Source of the DNA: Actinophytocola xinjiangensis
Lineage (GTDB): Bacteria; Actinomycetota; Actinomycetes; Mycobacteriales; Pseudonocardiaceae
Assembly: GCF_001921215.1 (NCBI RefSeq)
Contig: NZ_MSIF01000001.1
Coordinates: 1,054,001-1,118,000, forward strand
DNA length: 64,000 nt
Direction of reading: 5' to 3'
Made by a program: the position numbers and the translations under genes. This document shows, piece by piece, positions 25,620-31,087 of the stretch. The first letter of the stretch is position 1. Each line of letters opens with the position of its first letter. The notes beneath the pieces were generated by a model, which did no database searches, was not told the origin of the DNA, and saw only the letters and a program-made list of their open reading frames with translations.

Positions 25620-28600
25620 CGGCTGAACCGGAGCCGAACGCCACGGCGCGACTGGAACACCTTCGGCACCGGCTGGGCGGCCGGCGACCCGTCGTGTCCG
25701 AACAGGACACGACGGTGGCCGGTGACCAGCTGTGGCCGCTGTCGTTTCCCCAGCGACAGATCTGGATCCTGGAGCAGCTCTCGCCGGGTTCGGCGGCCTA
25801 CCACCTGCCCCTGGTCGCCAGGATCACCGGGGCGGTGGACCCGGCGGCCCTGCGGGCGGCGCTGCTGGCCGTGCTGAACCGTCAGGACGCGCTGCGGGCC
25901 GGAGTCGTGTCCGACGGTTCGGCCGTGCGCCAACGGTTCCTGGCCGTCGCCGAGGTGGAGCTGCCGGTGCTGGACACCGACGGCGAGGACGACCTGTGGC
26001 GCCGGGCGGAGGAGTTCGTGCGTACGCCGTTCGACCTCGACGGCGGGCCGCTGTGGCGGGCGACGATGTTGCGGCTCGGCCCCGAACACCACGTGCTGAT
26101 GGTGTGCTTCCACCACCTGGTGATCGACGGCTGGTCCATCGGACTGTTCTGGAACGACCTGTGCGCCGCCTACCGGGCCGGCCCGCCCACGGCCGGCCCC
26201 GCGACGTCCTACGCGGACTTCGTGACCTGGCAGCGGGAGCGACTGGTCGGAGACCGGCTGGAACGGGAACTGCGGTACTGGGCCGACCGGCTCGACGGCG
26301 CGCCGCCGCTGCTGTCGCTGCCCACGGACAACGCGCGACGCCCGACGGCCCGGCCGCGTGGCGGTGTGGCGCGGGTCGACCTCCCCGCCGAGGTGGTCAC
26401 CGGGCTGCACGCGTTGGCCCGCGCCGAGGGCGCCAGCCTGTACATGGTGCTGCTCGCCGTGTACGCGACCCTGTTGCACCGCCGCACCGGTGAGGACGAC
26501 GTGCTCGTCGGGACGCCGGTGGCCAACCGGACACGGCCGGAGCACGAGCCGGTGATCGGCCTGTTCACCAACACCGTCGTGATGCGCACCCGACCGCGCG
26601 GCAGGACGGTGTTCCGGCGGTTCCTGCGCGTGGTGCGCGACGGTGTCCTCGACGACCTCGCCCACCAGGAGCTGCCCTTCGAGCTGCTGGTGCGGCGGGT
26701 GCGGCCCGACCGTGACCTGAGCTACGCGCCGATCTTCCAGGTCATGTTCGCGCTGCACAACCTGCGGGACTCCGGGACGGCACCGGCCGGCACCGAGGTC
26801 GAGTTCCTCGACGTGGCGGTCGGCGCCAGCCGCTACGACCTCGACCTGTCGCTGGTCGAACGCGGGGGGCGGGTGACGGGCCGGCTCGAGTACAACGCCG
26901 AGCTGTTCGACCCGTCCACCGCGGAAGGCCTGGCGCGGGACTTCCAGGAACTCGCCCGTTCGGTCGTCGACGACCCGGACCGGTCGCTGACCTCCCTCCC
27001 GCTGGGCACCGTCGAGGACCGGGCGACGGCACTGCGGGCGGCGCGGGGCCCCGTCGGCGAGCCGAACCCCGCCCTGGTGCACGAGCAGATCGCCGAACGG
27101 GCCAGGAGCACACCGGACGCCGTGGCACTGGACTGTCTTGGCGAGGAGCTGACCTACCGGGAACTGGACGACCACGCCAACCAACTCGCCCACCACCTTC
27201 GCGGGCTCGGCGCCGGACCGGAGACCGTGGTGGCGGTGAACCTGGAACGGTCGACCGGCCTGGTCGTCGCGCTGCTCGGCGTGCTCAGGGCCGGGGCGGC
27301 CTACCTGCCCGTCGACCCGGACCACCCTGCCGACCGGATCGCGCATCTGCTGCGCGACGCCTCGGTGCCGATCGTGGTCACCTCCGCCCGGCTCGGTGAG
27401 CGCCTGCCACCGGTCGACGCCGTCCTGGTCAGGCTGGACACCGACGCCGCCGCGATCTCGGCCCACCGGGCCGACGCGCCGCGGACCGGCGTGACCGCTG
27501 GCAACCTGGCCTACGTCCTGCACACCTCCGGCTCCACCGGCCGACCCAAGGGCGTGCTGGTCGAACACGGCAACGTGCGCAACCTGCTGCACGCGCTCGA
27601 CGAGGTGGTGCCCGACCGGGGCCGCCGCCGCTGGCTCGCGGTGACCAGCGTGTCCTTCGACATCTCGGTGCTCGAACTGCTGTGGACGCTCGCGCGGGGG
27701 TACCGGGTGCGGGTGCGGGCCAGGGACGGCGGTGACACCGGGGCGGCGGCCGAACCCGGCCGGGACACCCTGGACTTCAGCCTGTTCTACTTCGGCGCCG
27801 AGGCGGGGGCCGACGGGTACCGGCTGCTCACCGACGGCGCGCGGCTGGCCGACGAGCACGGGTTCGGCGCGGTGTGGACCCCGGAGCGGCACTTCAACGA
27901 GTTCGGCGGCAACTTCCCCAACCCCGCCGTCACCGGCGCCGCGCTCGCGACGATGACCTCCCGGCTGGAGATCCGCGCCGGCAGCGTGGTCCTACCGCTG
28001 CATGATCCGCTGCGAGTGGCCGAACAGTGGTCGGTGGTGGACAACCTGTCGGGCGGGCGGGTCGGGGTCTCGTTCGCGTCCGGGTGGCACCCGACCGACT
28101 TCGCGCTCGCGCCGCACGACTACCAGGACCGCCGCCGGGTCATGCGGGAGCGGATCGAGCAGGTGCGGCTGCTGTGGCGTGGGGGGACCCTGTCCCGGCG
28201 TTCCGGTACCGGTGAGACGGTCGAGGTCACCAGCCACCCCCGGCCGGTCAGGGCCGAGTTGCCGGTGTGGCTCACGGCCGGTGGCACCAGGGCGACCTTC
28301 GCGCTGGCGGGCGAGCTGGGGGTGAACCTGCTGACCCACCTGCTCGGGCAGGACCTCGACGACCTGCGGGTCAACATCGCCACCTACCGCGACGCGCGGG
28401 CCGCCGCCGGGTACGACCCCGCGACCGGTCGCGTCTCGGTGATGCTGCACACCTACGTCGGGGACGACCTGGAGCAGATCCGGGAGCTGCTGCGGGAGCC
28501 GTTCTCCCGGTACCTGCGAACCTCCTTCGGCCTGATGAGCAACCTCGCCACGGCGCTGGGACACAGTCCGACGGAGTCCGATGTGGACTTCCTGCTGGCG

Positions 28601-31087: not shown

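Follow-up and report, generated by a model that had tools for sequence, protein, structure and literature searches.

What becomes of glycine on an adenylation domain that is broken open by an oxygenase and followed, on the same protein, by a reductive release domain? The question is raised by a non-ribosomal peptide synthetase (NRPS) chain encoded in a 64,000-nucleotide stretch of Actinophytocola xinjiangensis DNA (contig NZ_MSIF01000001.1, positions 1,054,001 to 1,118,000), referred to here as the window. Judged from its sequence, the module is a member of the known kind of glycine adenylation (A) domain interrupted by a monooxygenase (MOX), and the reductase (R) on the same chain is a less common twist. 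We put the probability that glycine is hydroxylated at its alpha-carbon in cis by the luciferase-like monooxygenase (LLM) insert at about three in four, a figure that applies to neither of the two product fates considered below.

The chain is a single uninterrupted open reading frame (ORF) at 25616–31087 on the plus strand, 1823 amino acids long, for which frame translation and profile scans give the order C-A[LLM]-PCP-R, where C is the condensation domain and PCP the peptidyl carrier protein. The condensation domain occupies 25733–27001 (Pfam PF00668, residues 40–462). The N-terminal part of the A domain (27083–27730, PF00501, from residue about 493) runs to just past motif a4, and its C-terminal part (28781–29620, best TIGR01733 piece 1059–1269, to residue about 1330) carries the remaining pocket and motif a10, so that Pfam matches AMP-binding as two pieces. 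The PCP, with the motif DFFALGGHSL, follows at 29666–29875 (PF00550, residues 1353–1416) and the R domain at 29972–31045 (PF07993, residues 1455–1809). All the core motifs that were checked are intact: NGKLD at a10, HHLVIDG in the C domain, LGGHSL in the PCP, and TGATGFLG and YAQSK in the R domain. The last of these domains fits the terminal thioester reductases, scoring 316.4 bits against TIGR01746 (cut-off 213.35) with both TGxxGFLG and YxxxK present. One open frame and an even coding bias rule out a frameshift, an assembly artefact or two separate genes.

The insert itself is matched by TIGR04020, the luciferase-like FMN (flavin mononucleotide) monooxygenase model, over model positions 1–340 of 341 and 332 residues of the chain (27776–28771, residues 721–1052), with 464.8 bits in the whole-chain scan against a curated cut-off of 244.45; the domain E-value of 1.6e-139 excludes a chance match. 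It begins some 30 residues past the a4 motif FDISVLELL (27656–27682) and ends about 26 residues ahead of HLQLTPS, and so lies between a4 and a5. A previous sequence-only reading had assigned 27770–28780 to a luciferase-like monooxygenase at this very point, and its limits are correct to within some 10 bases on either side. The insert has a third-position GC of 0.95, against 0.92–0.94 for the five other NRPS domains, which marks it as ordinary coding sequence. Among solved structures the nearest sequence is PuwE (PDB 6KET; E 9.5e-109, 366.9 bits, insert residues 1–326), which is a separate 362-residue chain; a literature search on the role of PuwE returned no match. The pocket residues are split over both sides of the break. 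HLQLTPS (28850–28870) holds the first of them after the insert, with LLVGGEE (28931–28951) and NLYGPTETTVW (29006–29038) beyond it. From the alignment columns, and with what we take to be the GrsA positions that anchor the code, the nine residues are DILQLGLVW, the glycine-type code that the sequence-only reading had pieced together across the insert. A minus-strand NRPS gene elsewhere in the window (55775–59884) has an uninterrupted A domain with the code DVLQIGAIW, close to that of the MOX-glycine domains.

Is the fusion peculiar to this organism? TIGR04020 was matched at E 1e-70 or better in 65 of the 297 genomes of the same bacterial family, and an A domain split by an LLM was found in 15 of 40 family loci, others having the LLM within polyketide synthase (PKS) modules or free-standing; since these loci were picked from TIGR04020-positive places, mostly for their long frames, 15/40 is not a frequency among LLMs. 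All 15 share the insertion point, in the same alignment columns, and are 46–53 % identical to the window domain over the A-LLM-A region. The identical split occurs in 67 of the best 80 of at least 592 matches in named genomes (in 64 of the 67 with the LLM as one matched piece), a proportion that is enriched because the 80 were ranked against the interrupted domain of the window. These best 80 loci place the split in myxobacteria, cyanobacteria, proteobacteria, planctomycetes, acidobacteria, Verrucomicrobiota, Chloroflexota and actinomycetes. The two surveys together rule out a unique fusion. Domain calls on the chains of relatives are phmmer matches to single domains, which can miss divergent ones.

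The comparison of codes and the A-domain trees excluded from the start 47 of the 80 named loci, mostly alphaproteobacterial; 50 of the 51 interrupted A domains compared, window included, match DI[LV]QxGx[IV]W, the exception being DALQLGASW. In the tree of the N-terminal part (122 rows) the interrupted domains lie on one side of a branch with a support of 88 in the approximate likelihood ratio test (SH-aLRT). The LLM tree has 91 rows and includes 49 of 80 interrupted rows, the window among them. Its rows sort strongly by context (interrupted, PKS-embedded or free), with 5 changes of label against a shuffled mean of 36.6, and the window insert groups with those of loci L046 and L049 (support 88), L049 and L046 being also its nearest rows by path. 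The A domain of L046 (8073–11330, plus strand) is twice interrupted: besides the LLM between a4 and a5, about 270 residues that look methyltransferase-like by eye stand between two C-terminal pieces. Another arrangement recurs at L110 (8321–13021 and 904–7353) and at many named loci, where an A[LLM]-PCP chain adjoins a PKS chain of ketosynthase (KS), acyltransferase (AT), ketoreductase (KR), dehydratase (DH) and acyl carrier protein (ACP). In the L110 pair, the only one scanned with Pfam, a formyltransferase stands at the N-terminus of the A[LLM]-PCP chain and a thioesterase (TE) ends the PKS chain; a literature search on this A[LLM]-PCP and KS-AT-KR-DH-ACP pair gave no match.

How does the module compare with characterised ones? 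The window chain is like the modules of myxothiazol and melithiazol in having a glycine A domain whose a4 and a5 motifs are separated by a flavin monooxygenase, a likeness drawn from published descriptions rather than from alignment. The terminal modules of those two pathways, in the proteins that we take to be MtaG and MelG, end in a TE, whereas the window chain has a TIGR01746/PF07993 reductase after the PCP, which rules out a strict myxothiazol-type terminal module. MOX domains inside glycine A domains have already been published (PMC10204066; PMC11342130; PMC12283262), and nested domains are generally put between a8 and a9 (PMC8949500; PMC12283262). The passages on myxothiazol and melithiazol place the monooxygenase between a4 and a5 (PMC10204066) and describe alpha-hydroxylation of glycine, after which the carbinolamide breaks to leave a terminal amide (PMC10204066; PMC11342130). 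One survey gives its four MOX-bearing glycine domains one and the same code, DILQLGMIWK, and terms the MOX step beta-hydroxylation followed by amide formation (PMC12283262). In solanimycin, SolF also has a flavin monooxygenase within a glycine A domain, for which alpha-hydroxyglycine is proposed (PMC10204066); the SolF insertion separates a8 from a9 and the hydroxyglycine remains in a longer chain, whereas the window insert lies before a5, so the SolF type is ruled out. The MOX variant of the corallorazine-like pathways, of which 38 are reported from Serratia and Pseudomonas (PMC11342130), shares with the window a MOX in a glycine A domain, there the second, and a reductively released line. 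Those systems are bimodular, carry PCP-R on a separate ORF and have an N-methyltransferase in the published second A domain as well, whereas the window has one module whose PCP and R belong to the same chain, not C-A-T-C-A plus a separate T-R, which rules out membership of crz. Within the family of the window organism, L049, L043 and L044 (C-A[LLM]-PCP-TE) have the same module and insertion point and carry a TE where the window has R (confirmed by Pfam for L049 and L043). With MOX-interrupted glycine modules both published and abundant in sequence, the suggestion of the sequence-only reading that the chemistry is unusual in itself is not supported. Its insertion point, LLM family, glycine-type code, MbtH partner and terminal reductase all stand, and published relatives lend support to the proposed oxidation of carrier-bound glycine at C-alpha.

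What is less common is the ending. In a set of 86 chains that contain an interrupted module, drawn from two overlapping sources and so possibly including duplicates, none carries R on the same chain. Ten of them fall short of the PCP and are uninformative about what comes after it; of the 76 that reach it, 75 are closed by a stop codon, 66 end at the PCP (with a tail of 120 residues or fewer), four, that of L049 among them, continue into a TE and the rest into further domains. The window chain is thus the only one, among those examined, that joins a putatively glycine-oxidising A domain to a reductive release domain. The reductase is found in the next gene at ten loci of interrupted modules, as PCP-R at L048, L058, L062 and L064 and as KS-AT-PCP-R at L038, L039, L041, L042, L108 and L183. 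L058, L062 and L064 have the corallorazine-like layout, a C-A-PCP-C-A[LLM] chain with a PCP-R gene after it, and L048 has A[LLM] in front of its PCP-R; the R domain of the window is most like that of L048, at 44 %. Because R is so often in the neighbouring ORF, the fused PCP-R form is a modest variant.

The sequence of events that we favour would begin with the A domain loading glycine onto the PCP and the C domain joining it to a polyketide chain. The LLM, with FMNH2 supplied by a cellular flavin reductase, would then hydroxylate the glycyl alpha-carbon, giving the carbinolamide acyl-NH-CH(OH)-CO-S-PCP. Hydroxylation is likelier after condensation than before it, since an alpha-hydroxyglycine whose amine is free should not be stable. 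C-alpha hydroxylation is favoured by the insertion point and the degree of identity common to the 15 family homologues, by the fit of DILQLGLVW to the code of the interrupted domains and to DILQLGMIWK, by the position of the interrupted domains on one side of a branch in the N-terminal tree, and by the nearest inserts by path, in L046 and in the C-A[LLM]-PCP-TE chain of L049. It is also the reaction given for myxothiazol and melithiazol and proposed for solanimycin. An R domain above its curated cut-off, with its motifs, favours a MOX-glycine module provided with a reductase.

Two fates of the carbinolamide may be considered. It could break to yield the primary amide of the polyketide, leaving a glyoxylyl stub to be cleared by R in the way that, by analogy, the TE would act in myxothiazol; we regard this as having close to an even chance. 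Alternatively, R could reduce the thioester before the break, with N-acyl-alpha-hydroxyglycinal, or a cyclised derivative, as the outcome, which is a serious prospect if somewhat short of even. Breakage of the carbinolamide need not be obligatory, as is suggested by the PKS chains that follow the interrupted modules of L038, L039, L041 and L042 and by solanimycin. A one-chain ending, in which R captures the acyl-alpha-hydroxyglycyl thioester ahead of the break and releases N-acyl-alpha-hydroxyglycinal (a masked electrophile of the glyoxal or N-acylimine type) or a ring made from it, is a tentative proposal that we think has rather poor odds; Asn761 of the insert might help to adapt the oxygenase to such an aldehyde release. 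The window module bears on a wider question: is a MOX-glycine unit bound to end as an amide, or can the aldehyde be captured? The answer would point to the possible products of other MOX-glycine clusters that are still uncharacterised.

Several observations weigh against cis hydroxylation by a typical member of this group. In the tree of the C-terminal part of the A domain (126 rows) the interrupted label needs four changes instead of one. The window insert belongs to none of the starred sets in the LLM tree, despite the support of 88 for its group, and its highest identity in that tree (60 %) is to the acidobacterial L102, outside the L046/L049 group. No close match to the insert turned up in 200 genomes of the family or 394 of the class, the best being 59 % in each, in a search where the other cluster genes were not searched for. 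Four uninterrupted A domains carry the interrupted-domain type of code, which is thus evidence of glycine rather than of an insert or an oxidation. A PF01613 flavin reductase is absent from the part of the cluster seen, with four encoded elsewhere in the genome, other reductase families not having been searched. Lastly, two residues of the insert depart from its relatives: Asn761, in the family motif PERHFH, is His in all 48 of the other interrupted LLMs, and Leu1035 is Phe in 42 and Tyr in 6 of these 48, so that the activity of the insert may possibly be changed or lost.

The last point is the basis of the rival explanation that survives best, in which the insert is dead or altered and kept for folding, plain glycine is added, and R releases glycinal or glycinol. 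Directly downstream of the NRPS and MbtH genes lies a gene for a second, free-standing TIGR04020 LLM (31292–32509, plus strand, 473.1 bits, 405 amino acids if the GTG at 31292 is its start), which may oxidise in trans, and solanimycin A shows that hydroxylation can be skipped (PMC10204066). The insert nevertheless scores 465 bits with a coding bias like that of its neighbours. The column of residue 761 is also not invariant: the 89 other LLM rows have 77 His, 8 Asp, 3 Asn and 1 Thr, the three Asn all in PKS-embedded LLMs. The free LLM, which groups with LLMs of L051 and L077 (support 89), is itself odd in having Phe at a position that is Trp in all 89 of the other rows. We regard a dead or altered insert as unlikely.

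Slightly more doubtful is the idea that the module is not terminal, and that R or the cleavage hands an aldehyde or a C2 unit to later modules. The NRPS gene is the second of a long plus-strand run with further PKS and NRPS modules behind it, and the KS-AT-PCP-R chains next to six of the interrupted modules would agree with such a transfer; gene order need not match module order, though, and an R domain usually marks the end of an assembly line. N-hydroxylation of glycine, or addition of oxygen beside the thioester in the manner of a Baeyer-Villiger enzyme, seems very improbable, as the precedents for glycine modules give C-alpha hydroxylation (beta-hydroxylation and then an amide in the wording of the one survey, PMC12283262), and N-hydroxylation is given for such a domain in none of the literature passages found.

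The putatively alpha-hydroxylating module sits in a large biosynthetic region. Immediately upstream is a PKS module, KS-AT-KR-DH-ACP (20148–25619, plus strand), whose stop codon overlaps the NRPS start codon, and directly after the NRPS comes the MbtH-like protein (31074–31295, plus strand, PF03621). An FkbH-type gene (32484–34403, plus strand) follows further on, and the chain at 41782–47878 (plus strand) has a condensation domain and a C-terminal part that to the eye resembles FkbH/HAD proteins; a unit derived from glycerate may be passed to an NRPS here. Between PKS and NRPS genes a third luciferase-like protein of 326 amino acids is encoded at 47875–48855 (plus strand), with alkanesulfonate monooxygenase models as its best matches, below their cut-offs, and no TIGR04020 match listed. 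The contig ends at 1134410, 16.4 kb past the window. Beyond the window, locus L177 (1114001–1134000 of the same contig) contains two EryCIII-like glycosyltransferases, an NDP-hexose 2,3-dehydratase, a DegT aminotransferase, a methyltransferase, an FkbO/Hyg5-like chorismatase and a chain with AMP-binding, carrier and KS domains. These genes hint at a 3-hydroxybenzoate starter and an aminodeoxysugar, and the surroundings as a whole suggest a large glycosylated PKS/NRPS product. To the left of the cluster, all on the plus strand, are GvpL/GvpF gas vesicle genes (10129–11424 and 11923–13053), a GH6 glycoside hydrolase (884–2479) and a ricin-B lectin protein (3748–5202).
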